From Acidimicrobiia bacterium (GTDB taxonomy: Bacteria; Actinomycetota; Acidimicrobiia; Spongiisociales; ZC4RG35): DNA of 64,000 nucleotides. The position numbers and the translations under genes were made by a program. Numbering within the stretch: the stretch's first letter is position 1; every line of letters starts with the position of its first letter. This document shows positions 43,325-52,725 of the stretch, piece after piece. The notes under the pieces are model-generated. The model saw nothing but the letters and a program-made list of their open reading frames with translations, was not told where the DNA came from and did no database searches. The stretch covers positions 1-64,000 of the forward strand of contig JANQRA010000011.1 in the NCBI GenBank assembly GCA_028284765.1. Reading direction: 5' to 3'.

Positions 43325-43648
43325 ATGCTCGCCGTCGACGTCGTCAATGATCCAGAAAAAGGCAGATTCTCCGCCATTGTCGATGGCGTGATTGCGGGCT
43401 TCACCGAGTACCGAGTTCATTCCGGCGACCTCTACTTCTTCGTTCACACCGAAGTCGACGATGACTTCTCCGGTGCGGGTGTCGCAACCATGCTGATCGA
43501 GGGTGCGTTGAACGATGTGCGAGCCAAGGGTGGTCGGGTAGTGCCGCTCTGCCCGTTTGTGAGGGCTTTCATCGAGGGCCGGCCGGAGTACAACGACATG
43601 GTCGACAAATACGTGCTCGGTCGGGCTCGATCCAAGGACCACGACTAG
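43325..43648 (+). CDS. Small GNAT-like N-acetyltransferase (YjdJ/GTLF type)
   Basis: 107 residues. DPEKGRFSAIVDGVIAGFTE, FVHTEVDDDFSGAGVATMLI (acetyl-CoA site), EGALNDVRAKGGRVVPLCPF and AFIEGRPEYNDMV match the short GCN5-related family (PF14542-like, resembling human NATD1). Its stop TAG shares CTAG with the stop of the histidine kinase gene coming from the right. Role unknown. Confidence 0.92.
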   Translation: MLAVDVVNDPEKGRFSAIVDGVIAGFTEYRVHSGDLYFFVHTEVDDDFSGAGVATMLIEGALNDVRAKGGRVVPLCPFVRAFIEGRPEYNDMVDKYVLGRARSKDHD

Positions 43649-44991
43649 CCCGCTGGCAGGTCCACGGTGAAGGCCGTTCCTTCGTCACTCGTGTCCACGC
43701 GAATCTCGGCGCCGACCTTCTGAATGATGCTGTGGACGGTATGGAGGCCGAGACCCGTCCCTTCTCCGGGCTCCTTCGTGGTGAAGAACGGATCGAAGAT
43801 CTTTTCTGCGAGATCTGGAGGAATCCCCGGGCCCGTATCAGAGATGGTCACACTGACTCCGTCGTCGGTGGACCGTGCAGCAACGGTCAGGGTGCCAGCA
43901 CCGTCCATCGCTCCGGCCGCGTTGTCGATCAGATTGGTCCAAATCTGGTTGAGGTCTCGGCCCGGCGCCTCGACGTGCGGTAGGTCTTCCTGGATGTCGA
44001 TGACTGTCTCAATCCCACGGAGTCGGTGTTTCATCAGGGTGAGCGTGTCCTCCAGGCCTTTGCCTATGTCGACACTCTGAATCGGAGCCTGATCCACGAA
44101 GGAATACTCCTTGACGATTCGTACCAGCTCGGAGACACGTCCGGCTGCGATAGCGATTTCCTCCGCCAACTGACGTGCCTGCGACCTCAGGCCCGCCCAC
44201 CTCGCAAGACCGGGGCGTATCGCTGCCTCGGCGACGCTGAGTGAGGCCCGCAGTGCCTCGCTCGTCCATCCCTCCTCAACCATCGATGGTCCGTACTCCC
44301 AGCCATCGGTGATGCCCAGTTCCTCGAGATATGCGACCAGCCCGTCTTCGATCTCTGACCTGTCGAGTGGTGAGAGGTCGGCAGCACGTGCAGGCGGAAT
44401 CAGATCGACTCCGTCCGTCAGCGCGATAGTGAGAGCTGTCGCTTGGTCGAACAACTCCGAGGTAGTGCGCTCCAGGTTCTCGCTCGATCTCCCCACCGCC
44501 GCTGCCGGGTTGTTCAATTCGTGCATCAGCTGCGCGGCCATGCGCCCGAGCGCCGCCATGCGCTCTTCGTGTCGGAGTGCCGTCTCGTTTTCTCTCAATC
44601 GGGAGGTGACAGTTCGAAACATCCGCCGCACCACGGACGGCTGCTGGAGCAGGATTTCGAACGCGTCGGCAGGTATCTCGACCAGTGTCGACTTGCGTTC
44701 AACCTCGACTGAGGCCATTCGTGGGGCTTGGTCGAGCAGAGCAAGCTCACCCACCACATCGCCCGACTGGAGTCTGGCGAGTTCCAAAGCCCGTTCGCCG
44801 CTGCGTTTCACCACTCGGACCTCGCCGTCTACCACCACATACATCTCGCTCGAGCTTGAACCCTCCTGGATGACGGTGTCCCCTGGTTGAAACGACACGC
44901 TCTTGGATTTGGCTGCGACCGCTTCAAGGACGTCGCTGTCGAGATCGGCGAAGTAGGGGAGACCTCGCAGCACCCGAGCAACGTCCGTCAT
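43645..44991 (-). CDS. Histidine kinase with N-terminal cyclic-nucleotide-binding domain
   Basis: 448 residues, no membrane segment. Residues 10-125 are a cNMP-binding domain whose phosphate cassette [19 protein letters not shown] keeps the Glu (82) and Arg (91) that hold cAMP or cGMP. The H box is [16 protein letters not shown] with His157. An inserted helical region spans about 175-285. The catalytic part has LIDNAAGAM (N box), [20 protein letters not shown] and GTGLGLHTV. Its start overlaps the stop of the REC/flavoprotein gene by 4 bases, so it is the third gene of a coupled operon and the likely kinase for that receiver. Confidence 0.9.
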
Positions 44992-46640
44992 AGGTCGGCG
45001 AGGTGCTGGTGAACGAAGCGGATGGCTGTGGCCCCTTCTCCGGTTGCTCCGGCTACCCGACGAATCGAGCCATGTCTCACGTCACCTGCACCGAATATCC
45101 CCGGAACCGATGTTTCGAGCGGCAACGGGTCACGGCCCACGTTCCAGTTGTCCGGAGAATTCACGTCGTCTCCGGTCACCAGGAACCCCCGGTCGTCCAG
45201 TTCCACCGTGTCAGCGATCCAGTCCGTCTTTGGAGCCTGCCCGATGAGTATGAACAGGGCGGATGCTTCTTCGACGGTGACATCGCCCGTGTCCAGATTC
45301 GAGATGTGGATCTGATCGAGGCTGGAGTCACCTACGGCGGCTACCACCTGGGACCGAGGTCGAACCGTTACGGAGTCCGTAGCGTCGATATTGTCGATCA
45401 GGTACTGAGACATCGTGTCGCTGAGGTCTGATCGACGGATCAGGATTGTCACCTGGTCGCTGAACCTCGATAGGAAGAGAGCCGCCTGGCCTGCCGAGTT
45501 TCCACCCCCAACAACAAACATCGGTCGATCGGCGTGGGAGCCAGCTTCAAACGTCGATGCGCCGTAGTAGACCCCGGCACCCACCAACGAGTCCACGCCA
45601 TCGGCTTCGAGCTTCCGATATGACACTCCGCTCGCAACGACCAGTGCCTTGCATGCGACGTTCGACCCGTCAGCCATGTGCAAGACCTTGTAGGGGTCGT
45701 TGCGCTCGACGCTCTCGACCGTGGCGGGCACCACGATTTCGGCACCAAGTCGAGTGGCTTGTGAAGCCGCCCGGCGAGCAAGGTCGGCTCCGCCGATGCC
45801 TTTTGGGAAGCCCAAATAGTTCTCGATCAGCGAGGACTGCCCGGCCTGGCCGCCAGGTGCTTCGGATTCGATCAGAACGGTGCTCAGTCCTTCTGACGCC
45901 CCATAAACGGCTGCCGCCAACCCGGCAGGCCCACCACCGACGATGGCCACGTCGTATGTGGTGCCGGTGGCTTGGGAATGCAGACCCACTTCTTGAGCGA
46001 GCTCAGTCTCAGATGGTCGTTTGAGATGTCCACCGTCGGGAAAGCAGACCAGCGGTAGGTCGGCAATCTCGGCGGATGCTGCCCCCATGAGAGCTCGTCC
46101 GTCGTCTTCTTCAGGCGTCACGGAGCGGTATGGAACCTGGTTCCTGGCGAGGAATTGTCGGATCCCGAAGGCCTCTTTGGACCATTTCTGCGCGACGACC
46201 CTGATGCCCTTGAAGACCGGACGAAACCCCGCCTGCCAATCATCCAGCAAGTCGTCCAGAACGGGGAACAACAGTTCTTCCGGTGGAGACCAGGGCTTCA
46301 TGATGTAGTGGTCCAATCCCACATCGTTGATCGCACTGATCGCCGCTTCGGTGTCGGCATATGCAGTCAGCAAGGTCCTCTTCGCTGTTGGATATGCCGT
46401 CATGGAGTGTCGGAGAAGGTCGACCCCGGTCACTTGGGGCATGCGTTGGTCAGCGACGATCAGCGCTAGGTAGTCACCGCGAGCGGCAAGTTCGTCGATT
46501 GTTTCCTGAGCTTCTGCGCCGCCTGTGGCGCCGAGGATCCTGTAGTCACCCGAGTATCGGGCTCGAAGGTCGCGCTGGACTGCCCTCAATACCTCGGGTT
46601 CGTCGTCTACAGCCAGAATCGCCGGTTTGGTGTCGGTCAT
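44988..46640 (-). CDS. Receiver domain fused to a cysteine-less glutaredoxin/thioredoxin-reductase-like flavoprotein
   Basis: 550 residues from ATG 46640, coupled by ATGA to the zinc-finger gene. Residues 5-125 are a receiver: VDDEPEV (12-13), phosphoacceptor Asp64 in IVADQRMP and Lys115 in HYIMKPW. Residues 140-215 look like a glutaredoxin fold with its CxxC lost (KWSKEAFGIRQFLARNQVPY). Residues 229-550 are thioredoxin-reductase-like with FAD (VGGGPAG), NADPH (VVGGGNSAG) and C-terminal FGAGDVR motifs. At the place of TrxB CATC it reads GAST, so both redox cysteines are missing. It likely uses FAD/NADPH for sensing or a non-disulfide reaction, controlled by phosphorylation. Confidence 0.9.
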   Translation of the reverse strand: MTDTKPAILAVDDEPEVLRAVQRDLRARYSGDYRILGATGGAEAQETIDELAARGDYLALIVADQRMPQVTGVDLLRHSMTAYPTAKRTLLTAYADTEAAISAINDVGLDHYIMKPWSPPEELLFPVLDDLLDDWQAGFRPVFKGIRVVAQKWSKEAFGIRQFLARNQVPYRSVTPEEDDGRALMGAASAEIADLPLVCFPDGGHLKRPSETELAQEVGLHSQATGTTYDVAIVGGGPAGLAAAVYGASEGLSTVLIESEAPGGQAGQSSLIENYLGFPKGIGGADLARRAASQATRLGAEIVVPATVESVERNDPYKVLHMADGSNVACKALVVASGVSYRKLEADGVDSLVGAGVYYGASTFEAGSHADRPMFVVGGGNSAGQAALFLSRFSDQVTILIRRSDLSDTMSQYLIDNIDATDSVTVRPRSQVVAAVGDSSLDQIHISNLDTGDVTVEEASALFILIGQAPKTDWIADTVELDDRGFLVTGDDVNSPDNWNVGRDPLPLETSVPGIFGAGDVRHGSIRRVAGATGEGATAIRFVHQHLADL

Positions 46641-46906
46641 CGGCCCCATACTTCGTCGGCGAAACACCACTTCCACGTCTCACCAGGCTCAATCGATCTG
46701 ACTAGTGGGTGATCGGGGTGCCCCTGCCAGTGACCTCGTGCGTGCCGATTCTTGGAGCTGTCACAGCACCCAACCTGACCACAGAGGAGACACGATCGAA
46801 GATGAACCCAAGTGTCTCCAACGTCGAGGCACTGTCGGCAGCCAGAAGAAGTGGGCTCAGCCACTTCAGCAAGGGCCGCAAAATGGGAGCAGTTGGCGTC
46901 GTTCAT
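46637..46906 (-). CDS. UBP-type (ZnF-UBP) zinc-finger protein
   Basis: 89 residues from ATG 46906; the frame is open further but lacks family sequence and approaches the divergent gene. Zinc ligands are complete: CSHFAAL, GCRQC, SCLLCGQVGCC and the His cluster NRHARGHWQGHPDHP, with the ending ETWKWCFADEVWG. In eukaryotes this domain binds the free C-terminal Gly-Gly of ubiquitin; here its ligand is unknown. First gene of the operon with the REC/flavoprotein and the kinase. Confidence 0.9.
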   Translation of the reverse strand: MNDANCSHFAALAEVAEPTSSGCRQCLDVGDTWVHLRSCLLCGQVGCCDSSKNRHARGHWQGHPDHPLVRSIEPGETWKWCFADEVWGR

Positions 46907-47810: not shown

Positions 47811-49307
47811 GTGCTTCTCCACGAACTCGTCGAGACGAGCAACACCGTTTCGGCAACGAGTTCGAGGACGGAGAAGGTCGAGCTGCTCGCGATTCTTCTG
47901 AAGCGACTCGACCCGGGTGAAGCTCAGGTGGCGGTGTCCTATCTCTCGGGTCATCCGGTTCAGTCACCGCTTGGTGTCGGCTACTCCGCCGTGTATGCAG
48001 TCGAGGAATCGCCCGCCGAGGCTCCACGGCTCGAGGTCTCTGACGTCGATCGGGTTCTGGAAGACATTGCAAACACCTCCGGTCCTGGTTCGAAGGCCAA
48101 GAGGGCCGCTCGGCTCTCAGAGCTCTTCGCCGCAGCAACCGAGCCGGAGCAGGAGTTTCTGCGCGGGCTGATTCTCAGGAACTTGCGGCAAGGAGCGCTG
48201 GAAGGGGTCATGGCCGAAGCAGTTGCCCAGGCGATTGGTGTCCCGGCCCCAAGAGTCAGCCGTGCGGCAATGCTCGAGGGTGATCTCACTATCGCGGCAG
48301 CCAAGGCCCTTATCGAAGGGCCGGAGAGCTTGGCGGATGCTGGCTTGGAGTTGCTGACCCCGCTTCAGCCGATGCTTGCCAAGACAGCACAATCGGTAAC
48401 CGAAGCTCTGGACTCAGAGGTGCCGATGGTCGTTGAGCAGAAACTCGATGGGTTGCGGCTTCAGGTGCACAAAGATGGCGAGAAGGTTCGGGTGTTCTCT
48501 CGCAATCTTCGCGACGTTACGGCCGACATGAACGAAGTCGTTGCAGAGGCACTCGCGTTCGATGCCGACCAACTCATCCTCGATGGGGAGGGGCTGCTCG
48601 TCGATGACTCAGGCGTTCCGATGTCGTTCCAAGACTCGATGAGCAATCGGGTGCCGGGCCGGCCCGAAACGTTCGGCGGCTATTACTTCGACGTGCTCCA
48701 CCACAACGGCGAGGATCTGATCGATCTTCCGCTCGAGATCCGGCGTGCGCGACTCGAAGAGGTCGTCCCAAAACAGAGGAGAGTTGCCTCGATTGTCACC
48801 AACAATCCCGAAGAGGGGGAACGCTTCTTCTCCGACTCGGTTGCAAACGGCTTCGAAGGTGTCGTGGTCAAGGATCTGGAACAGCCCTACGCAGCCGGGC
48901 GACGGGGTAGTGGCTGGCGCAAGGTGAAGCCCACACACACGCTTGACCTGGTCATCCTTGCTGTGGAATGGGGTTCGGGTCGGCGACAGGGCTGGTTGTC
49001 GAACCTCCATCTCGGTGCGCGGGACGGTGATTCATTCGTGATGCTGGGCAAGACCTTCAAGGGTCTGACCGACGAGATGCTGGAGTGGCAGACAACCAAG
49101 TTCCTGGCTCTCGAGGCAAGTCGAGACGGACACGTCGTGTTTGTGAAACCCGAGGTTGTCTATGAAATCGCGTTTGACGGGGTGCAACGGAGCACCAGAT
49201 ACCCGGGAGGGGTCGCGCTGAGGTTCGCTCGGGTGAAGGGCTACCGAGAGGACAAGAGCGCCGCTGAAGCGGACACCCTTGAAGTGGTCCGCTCTTTTCT
49301 CAAGTGA
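47811..49307 (+). CDS. ligB: ATP-dependent DNA ligase (LigB type)
   Basis: 498 residues from GTG 47811. The N-terminal helical DNA-binding domain spans 1-180. Motif I is VEQKLDGLRLQVHK with the adenylated Lys; other motifs are RNLRDVTADM, LDGEGLL, FDVLHHNGEDL, GFEGVVVKDL (IV) and GWRKVKPTHTLDLVIL (V). The C-terminal OB-fold ends with motif VI-like RYPGGVALRFARVKGYREDK. It seals nicks with ATP. It matches mycobacterial LigB architecture rather than LigD or LigC. Confidence 0.92.
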   Translation: MLLHELVETSNTVSATSSRTEKVELLAILLKRLDPGEAQVAVSYLSGHPVQSPLGVGYSAVYAVEESPAEAPRLEVSDVDRVLEDIANTSGPGSKAKRAARLSELFAAATEPEQEFLRGLILRNLRQGALEGVMAEAVAQAIGVPAPRVSRAAMLEGDLTIAAAKALIEGPESLADAGLELLTPLQPMLAKTAQSVTEALDSEVPMVVEQKLDGLRLQVHKDGEKVRVFSRNLRDVTADMNEVVAEALAFDADQLILDGEGLLVDDSGVPMSFQDSMSNRVPGRPETFGGYYFDVLHHNGEDLIDLPLEIRRARLEEVVPKQRRVASIVTNNPEEGERFFSDSVANGFEGVVVKDLEQPYAAGRRGSGWRKVKPTHTLDLVILAVEWGSGRRQGWLSNLHLGARDGDSFVMLGKTFKGLTDEMLEWQTTKFLALEASRDGHVVFVKPEVVYEIAFDGVQRSTRYPGGVALRFARVKGYREDKSAAEADTLEVVRSFLK

Positions 49308-51822: not shown

Positions 51823-52725
51823 GTGGAAGTGAGCAGCGCTGACCGAGTCGTCTATCCGGACGATGGCATCACCAAGGGTGAGGTGGTTGCGTACTTCGAG
51901 GCAGTCAGCGAAGCGATGTGGCCGTACCTGGAGGACCGTGCCCTGACCGTCGAGAGGTATCCCAAGGGTTTGGCTGCCAAAGGCTTCATGCAGAAGAACG
52001 CACCAAGTCATCTCGGAGCCGACGTCGTGGCGCGTCATGAGGTCCCGAGGGACGGCGGCGTCACCGAGTATCCCGTCCTGATGAATCGTCAGGGGGTGGC
52101 CGCCTTCGCCAACCTTGGCGTTCTCACGTTTCACGTTCCGCCTTCGACTGTGTCTCAACCGATGAACCCGGACTGGCTCATCTGGGACCTCGACCCTGAG
52201 CCGGGTTCCACCGCCCAGGTGAGGGAAGCTGCGTGGGCACTCAGGTCTGTCGTCGAGGTCTTCGGCATAGAGACCGGATTGATGACTTCAGGCTCCAACG
52301 GATATCACCTGAGAGCGCGGGCGGCCTCCGGTCTGGAAGCGGCGGACGCTTCTGTCGTGACCCGAGGAATCGCTGCTCTCGCTGCTCATGCTCATCCCGA
52401 CTTGATGACTCTCGAATTCAAGAAGGTCGAGCGCAAAGGCAGGGTCTTTGTCGACTGGCTCCGCAATGCCCCGTATTCGACATCGGTTGTGCCGTGGTCG
52501 CTCCGCGCTCGTAGTGGTGCTCCTGTTGCCACCCCAATCTCCTGGAACCAGTTGGACGACGTCGACCCGGACGGGATCCGTTTCACCGAGGCCCTCGATC
52601 TTCTGGATTCGGACCCCCTCTTGTCCGTTGACGACGTTGACTTTGGACCAATCGTCGACCAAGTCGGTGTCGCACTCATCGACGCCGGCATCGTCCTGGA
52701 ACCGTTCGACCGCTTCCGCTCGTGA
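51823..52725 (+). CDS. Stand-alone LigD-type polymerase (archaeo-eukaryotic primase fold)
   Basis: 300 residues from GTG 51823. Key motifs: DRVVYPDDGITKGEVVAYFE, LTVERYPKGLAAKGFMQKNA, WLIWDLDPEPG with the two metal Asp, TSGSNGYHLRARA, VFVDWLRNAPYSTSVVPWSL and PISWNQLDDVDPDGIRF. It belongs with the PolDom of LigD (primase-like), which fills ribo- and deoxyribonucleotides in gap repair and NHEJ. There is no ligase or phosphoesterase domain attached, and no ku gene in the window. The LigB gene lies 2.5 kb upstream on the same strand. Confidence 0.93.
   Translation: MEVSSADRVVYPDDGITKGEVVAYFEAVSEAMWPYLEDRALTVERYPKGLAAKGFMQKNAPSHLGADVVARHEVPRDGGVTEYPVLMNRQGVAAFANLGVLTFHVPPSTVSQPMNPDWLIWDLDPEPGSTAQVREAAWALRSVVEVFGIETGLMTSGSNGYHLRARAASGLEAADASVVTRGIAALAAHAHPDLMTLEFKKVERKGRVFVDWLRNAPYSTSVVPWSLRARSGAPVATPISWNQLDDVDPDGIRFTEALDLLDSDPLLSVDDVDFGPIVDQVGVALIDAGIVLEPFDRFRS

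Follow-up and report, generated by a model that had tools for sequence, protein, structure and literature searches.

Low-Mr thioredoxin reductases (TrxR; TrxB, TIGR01292) have a CxxC motif that is located beside the flavin adenine dinucleotide (FAD). In the flavin-reducing conformation, NADPH is placed at the FAD, and in the flavin-oxidizing conformation, the CxxC takes this position (PMC8564101). The TrxR-type ferredoxin/flavodoxin-NADP+ reductases, among them YumC and BcFNR, have the TrxR fold without the CxxC and are based on direct chemistry between NADPH and FAD (PMC8564101). Response regulators that join a receiver (REC) domain to a thioredoxin reductase are also known from censuses, where the available passages describe them as a “Mycobacterium-like combination” (PMC5847659) and as a TrxB class (PMC9953108). 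Here, we describe a three-gene cassette in 64,000 nucleotides of DNA from an Acidimicrobiia bacterium (GenBank assembly GCA_028284765.1, contig JANQRA010000011.1, positions 1 to 64,000 of the forward strand), and this whole stretch is referred to as the window. The cassette encodes a zf-UBP zinc finger, a response regulator in which a receiver is fused to a glutaredoxin (Grx)-fold domain and a TrxR-like flavoprotein, and a soluble histidine kinase. Both thiol centres of the regulator have been lost, and the flavin core has been retained. In our reading, to which we give a probability of about one half, phosphorylation by the kinase would gate a TrxR-fold NADPH/FAD protein, from which electrons would pass to an acceptor other than a thiol.

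The three genes lie on the minus strand at 43645-46906 in the transcriptional order zf-UBP, REC-Grx-TrxR-like flavoprotein and histidine kinase with a cyclic nucleotide-binding domain (cNBD). Both junctions are ATGA overlaps (two overlaps for three genes), and the coordinates and the coupling given in the initial annotation were right. At the start of the flavoprotein, relatives align from residue 1-2. Pfam reports every named domain of the three proteins except the glutaredoxin-like one. The features, all on the minus strand, are as follows.

46637-46906, minus strand: zf-UBP protein, 89 amino acids (Pfam zf-UBP, 42.3 bits, 9e-11).
44988-46640, minus strand: response regulator/glutaredoxin-fold/TrxR-like flavoprotein, 550 amino acids; its ATG at 46640 overlaps the stop codon of the zf-UBP gene.
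46236-46625, minus strand: REC receiver domain, residues 6-135, with D12, D13, D64, T92 and K115 (Pfam Response_reg, 4e-12).
45969-46223, minus strand: glutaredoxin/mycoredoxin-fold domain without CxxC, residues 140-224 (family profile against 2lqo).
44991-45959, minus strand: TrxR-like FAD/NAD(P) domain, residues 228-550 (Pfam Pyr_redox_2, 5e-35; TIGR01292; model fit).
45543-45572, minus strand: VYYGASTFEA, the site of the TrxR CATC, now G360-A-S-T363 (alignment to relatives).
45399-45440, minus strand: IRRSDLSDTMSQYL, the remnant of the NADPH 2'-phosphate motif (R402) and the family-specific MSxYL (conservation in 98 rows).
43645-44991, minus strand: soluble histidine kinase with an N-terminal domain of the type that binds cyclic nucleoside monophosphates (cNMP), 448 amino acids, no cysteine (Pfam cNMP_binding, 2e-20; HATPase_c, 3e-24).
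44710-44751, minus strand: phosphate-binding cassette of the cNMP-binding-type domain of the kinase, 14 residues (alignment of kinases).
44506-44523, minus strand: H-box HELNNP with the phospho-acceptor His157 (His in all aligned cassette kinases).

In the window flavoprotein, the CATC of TrxR has become GAST, with G360 and T363 in the place of the cysteines. The motif is absent from all 98 sampled family members. It was already missing from 94 rows in the first survey, and every REC- or cNBD-headed member from Chloroflexota that was added later lacks it. The refuting case named in the initial annotation, ordered homologues with the CxxC, therefore did not arise. In the CxxC-less rows, the first cysteine is mostly replaced by Gly in a GxxYG context, and the dinucleotide motif reads NSAGQA. 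The window protein has two cysteines in total (199 and 330), neither of which is widely conserved, and the family has no conserved cysteine column, the best two columns being about one third Cys. Because the two cysteines of the regulator are not conserved and the kinase has none, thiol chemistry in the cassette is very unlikely.

The FAD motif GGGPAG (235-240) and the NAD(P) motif GGGNSA (378-383) are both present, and all 43 invariant columns (55-61 sequences) fall within the FAD/NAD(P) part. The statement in the initial annotation that every redox CxxC is gone and the FAD and NADPH motifs remain stands for the cysteines and for these two motifs. It does not stand for HRRxxxR, the NADPH 2'-phosphate motif (PMC8564101), the counterpart of which is IRRSDLS. 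Its first arginine, R402, is kept in 97 of the 98 CxxC-less rows, and the other arginines are not conserved; the window protein also has R403, a position that is Gly in most relatives. Beside the old 2'-phosphate site lies an MSxYL motif (M410, Y413 and L414 in 98/98 rows, S411 in 96/98), which is absent from the CxxC-bearing relatives. The strong conservation of the flavoprotein core and the fixation of this new motif argue that the protein is not a decaying pseudoenzyme. On the basis of the invariant columns and the retained R402, FAD binding is likely and NAD(P)H binding is probable.

The predicted structure agrees with the TrxR fold. Rows from plasmid records were excluded from the AlphaFold inputs, and the predicted local distance difference test (pLDDT) gave scores of 90.9 (regulator) and 93.9 (zinc finger). 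The regulator model, for which no templates were used, matches the flavin-reducing TrxR structures 5mh4 (Z 37.4, root-mean-square deviation (rmsd) 1.6 Å) and 1f6m (Z 36.1, rmsd 2.1 Å). It superposes at about 1.6-2.3 Å on the flavin-reducing 5mh4, 1f6m and 5vt3 and only at about 7 Å on the flavin-oxidizing 1trb, 2q7v and 5mjk; the conformations of 5mh4 and 5mjk are those named in the results table, and 5vt3 and 2q7v were classed from the rmsd. A protein without the CxxC has no need of the flavin-oxidizing conformation. The window protein shares the fold, the FAD site and the dinucleotide motif with low-Mr TrxB (Z 37 to the L. lactis TrxR) but lacks the CATC, has only one family-conserved HRRxxxR arginine and scores 219.9 bits with TIGR01292, its best family score, which is 123 bits under the 343.45-bit equivalog cut-off. 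With YumC and BcFNR it shares the TrxR fold without CxxC, but these proteins are less similar to it than TrxR proper (Z 27-29 vs 37), and the window protein adds the REC and Grx domains.

The second thiol centre was lost from the glutaredoxin-fold domain. A profile of 43 family segments finds the Grx fold, with the M. tuberculosis mycoredoxin(-1) 2lqo as the best match (E 5.9e-9), followed by glutaredoxins. The position of the Grx CPDC is WSKEA in the window protein, with no CxxC or CxxS, and WSxxx across the family. The nearest outgroup is formed by Grx-TrxR fusions that have the same two-domain core but differ in their intact thiol centres: CPDC (loci L141, L142, L169 and L171) or CTDC (L170) is kept, the CATC is also intact, and no signalling domain was found. 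These five proteins are likely self-contained NADPH-to-redoxin reductases. A tree was built from the TrxR part after removal of the CxxC columns. A single branch (Shimodaira–Hasegawa-like approximate likelihood ratio test (SH-aLRT) support 100) leads to all 98 CxxC-less rows, and the fusions that retain both motifs branch off immediately outside it. Two CxxC changes were counted by script on this tree, one of which was read as an alignment shift in the TrxB row, which carries CATC. Since both motifs are still present in the relatives that have no signalling domain, the loss of the TrxR CxxC is placed on one deep branch, and this branch, with its support of 100, rules out a private accident or a sequencing error. 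The simplest history compatible with the tree would be a single loss of both thiol centres from a Grx-TrxR fusion, linked to its acquisition of signalling domains. The loss of both sulfur-based active sites argues for a role of the flavoprotein other than thioredoxin reduction.

The receiver of the window protein has D12/D13, D64, T92 and K115, including the Asp64 and Lys115 that had been singled out earlier, and the kinase has the H (HELNNP), N (NLIDNA), G1 (DTGPGIP) and G2 (GTGLGLH) boxes, so that the claim that all kinase boxes are kept also held; the HisKA Pfam model gives 17.4 bits, below its cut-off. In most loci, and across several phyla, the gene next to the regulator is that of the kinase. 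The receiver quintet is intact in all 62 receivers that have a kinase beside them versus 4/24 without one, and in the orphan receivers it has decayed in many different ways. The distances of regulators and kinases are correlated (r 0.84, 54 loci, Mantel p < 0.0005), to which shared species history contributes. Phosphotransfer from the kinase to D64 is the best reading of these patterns. An alternative architecture to kinase plus receiver is a direct cNBD-Grx-TrxR fusion (L007, L136, L137, L166 and L167), as if the cNMP-type domain acted sometimes in cis and sometimes via a phosphorelay. Either form places a cNMP-type domain upstream of the same Grx-TrxR module. Orphan REC-TrxR-like proteins with no kinase and decayed quintets form a clade (L114-L133) and are possible pseudo-receivers. 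In four other loci (L085, L086, L088 and L089), a single regulator precedes a tandem array of three cNBD-type kinases, the binding cassettes of which are degenerate and differ from one another, so that several signals may feed into one flavoprotein; some of these genomes have a zf-UBP gene about 7 kb away.

The kinase had been called cyclic-nucleotide-sensing. In the lineage of the window this stands as a prediction: the Glu and Arg of the phosphate-binding cassette are intact, and class III cyclases are encoded in the same genome. Sensing of cAMP or cGMP by the window kinase is a fair prediction. As a general claim it fails, because most homologous kinases have a degenerate cassette, and cyclic-nucleotide sensing thus does not characterize the system in general. 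The cassette is intact in 22/57 loci of one sample, mainly in relatives from the order of the window and also in several Chloroflexota; degenerate forms are found in most lineages, including the kinases of Streptomyces, Tsukamurella, Nostoc, Deinococcus and others. Cyclase genes lie near the three-gene cassette in 7/22 loci with an intact cNMP site versus 3/35 of the others, which is only suggestive (p 0.035, uncorrected). Class III cyclase-type genes stand directly beside the three-gene cassette, on the same strand and with an intact cNMP kinase, at L096:402-3998 and L163:7025-9700.

The zinc finger is linked to the cassette by both genome content and gene fusion. Among 246 actinobacterial genomes, zf-UBP is found in 46/58 genomes with the module versus 14/188 others (Fisher 3e-26, phylogeny ignored). 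Five genomes with only the weakest matches were not counted as having the module, and the three of these that were checked carry CATC. The finger gene lies within 9 kb of the module in 21 of 82 cases. It is fused to the C-terminus of the kinase in L106 (Actinomycetota) and, as an intact finger, to the N-terminus in L156 (Chloroflexota sample). These fusions make the kinase the best functional partner of the finger, and together with the 21/82 proximity, they rule out a placement of the finger beside the cassette by chance. Two loci, L056 and L057, have two zf-UBP genes each, upstream of the same regulator.

We infer phosphotransfer, gating, NADPH use and direct electron transfer as follows. 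The soluble kinase would integrate input from its cNMP-binding-type domain, the ligand of which is probably cAMP or cGMP in the window lineage, and the finger would be a partner that contributes a signal to the kinase. The kinase would then phosphorylate D64 of the receiver, and this phosphorylation would alter the arrangement of the attached TrxR-fold domain. This domain would bind FAD and NAD(P)H with no disulfide relay, and electrons would pass from NADPH to FAD and on to a non-thiol acceptor, by analogy with the TrxR-type ferredoxin/flavodoxin reductases. Several points weigh against this reading. The flavin-reducing conformation comes from a single AlphaFold model without a control and may be arbitrary. 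A preference for NADPH over NADH is uncertain, as only one HRRxxxR arginine is conserved in the family. The co-occurrence statistics carry no correction for phylogeny. The association between the kinase and the intact quintet is mainly one clade contrast, for which the tree gives 1-4 independent pairs, and since it is mainly a matter of clade against clade, it provides strong support and not an independent test.

The alternative that survives best is a non-catalytic sensor, in which the TrxR-like part would bind FAD/NAD(P)H as a ligand and inform a partner about the redox or nucleotide state, with phosphorylation tuning the reading. The loss of both thiol centres would suit such a protein, as would the fusion of the TrxR-like part to a receiver, which is a signalling context, and the direct cNBD fusions, which resemble ligand-gated switches. 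However, the high conservation of the residues of the flavin and nucleotide sites and the newly fixed motif fit a retained reaction at least equally well, and we regard the sensor as rather unlikely. The sequence taken by itself would fit either the “sensor or switch” of the initial annotation or an electron-transfer enzyme.

It is quite improbable that the zinc finger lets the cassette respond to a ubiquitin-like or proteasome-linked signal, with the flavoprotein as the effector. The zf-UBP fold is real, tied to the cassette and found fused to the kinase. The nearest solved fold to the finger model is the bacterial zf-UBP protein RPA1320 of Rhodopseudomonas palustris (PDB 2ida; 42% identity over 86 residues, Z 12.9), and HDAC6 gives Z 9.8. 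The likely metal ligands C23, C26, C39, C42, C47, C48, H55, H59 and H66 are invariant among the relatives, and so is W78, which aligns with the pocket tryptophan W1182 of HDAC6. HDAC6 binds the terminal glycine of ubiquitin through R1155 and Y1184, and the loss of both weakens binding (PMC10424181). In a profile alignment, the column of HDAC6 R1155 holds Ser, Asp, Asn or Ala in these fingers, although the invariant R37 could substitute for it. Of the earlier label of a zinc finger of the ubiquitin-binding type, the fold and the zinc ligands are borne out; since the carboxylate-binding arginine of HDAC6 has no equivalent, “ubiquitin-binding” is not supported. The finger also occurs in many bacteria for which we know of no ubiquitin-like conjugation.

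The fusion of a receiver to an ordinary thioredoxin reductase that borrows its cysteines from another part of the protein or from a partner is favoured by the best family score (TIGR01292) and by annotation pipelines that call some relatives “thioredoxin-disulfide reductase”, but this identity is ruled out by the lack of CxxC across the family (0/98), and borrowed cysteines are highly improbable given the absence of a conserved cysteine column, a kinase without cysteine, a score 123 bits under the equivalog cut-off and an ordinary CATC-bearing TrxB elsewhere in the same genome.

The cassette is not private to the window genome. One conserved cassette recurs in Actinomycetota and Chloroflexota, and the regulator-kinase pair is found on plasmids from Deinococcus, the cyanobacterium Nostoc, Caballeronia of the Burkholderiales, Tsukamurella and Streptomyces, in the last two with the finger. 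Relatives at E <= 1e-60, the CATC-bearing sort included, are present in 63/246 actinobacterial genomes and in 30/101 genomes of the Chloroflexota sample; a match at this threshold exists in about half of the sampled relatives, and the closest are 60-69% identical. The window regulator very likely belongs to the REC-TrxR class of the censuses, with which it shares the domain pairing by name, the comparison being one of domain names and not of census sequences. The available passages of PMC5847659 and PMC9953108 are silent on the loss of the CxxC, the Grx domain and the kinase and zf-UBP partners. Full-text searches, confined mainly to the open literature, found no description of the cassette, of the paired loss of cysteines or of a link between UBP and the kinase. 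The REC-TrxR fusion is already known, and the cassette is apparently undescribed. We tentatively propose a multi-phylum two-component system in which phosphorylation would directly gate electron flow through the thiol-free descendant of a Grx-TrxR fusion, with the UBP finger as an accessory of the kinase and with neither transcription nor thiols involved. If this is true, many genes that now carry the name “thioredoxin-disulfide reductase” or “FAD-dependent oxidoreductase” are wrongly named or too sparsely described, widespread response regulators that do not bind DNA gain a testable output in the phosphorylation control of a flavin, and bacterial UBP-type fingers gain a concrete partner in a histidine kinase.

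A promoter scan found nothing. In eight close relatives (L052-L056 and L059-L061), a molybdenum hydroxylase operon (AYRGAGR type, glyceraldehyde/CO-dehydrogenase-like) lies on the same strand upstream of the zf-UBP gene or the regulator. As a lead to the target it did not extend further: there is no such operon upstream of the cassette in the window or in other lineages. The window genome holds several such molybdenum hydroxylase large subunits elsewhere. A small GNAT-like open reading frame, identified by reading, lies at 43325-43648 on the plus strand; it is convergent with the kinase gene and overlaps its end by 4 bases. A GNAT gene is also close to the cassette of Deinococcus aetherius (L002). 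Further along the window, and by reading only, the plus strand encodes a putative ATP-dependent DNA ligase at 47811-49307 and a putative LigD-type polymerase-domain protein at 51823-52725.

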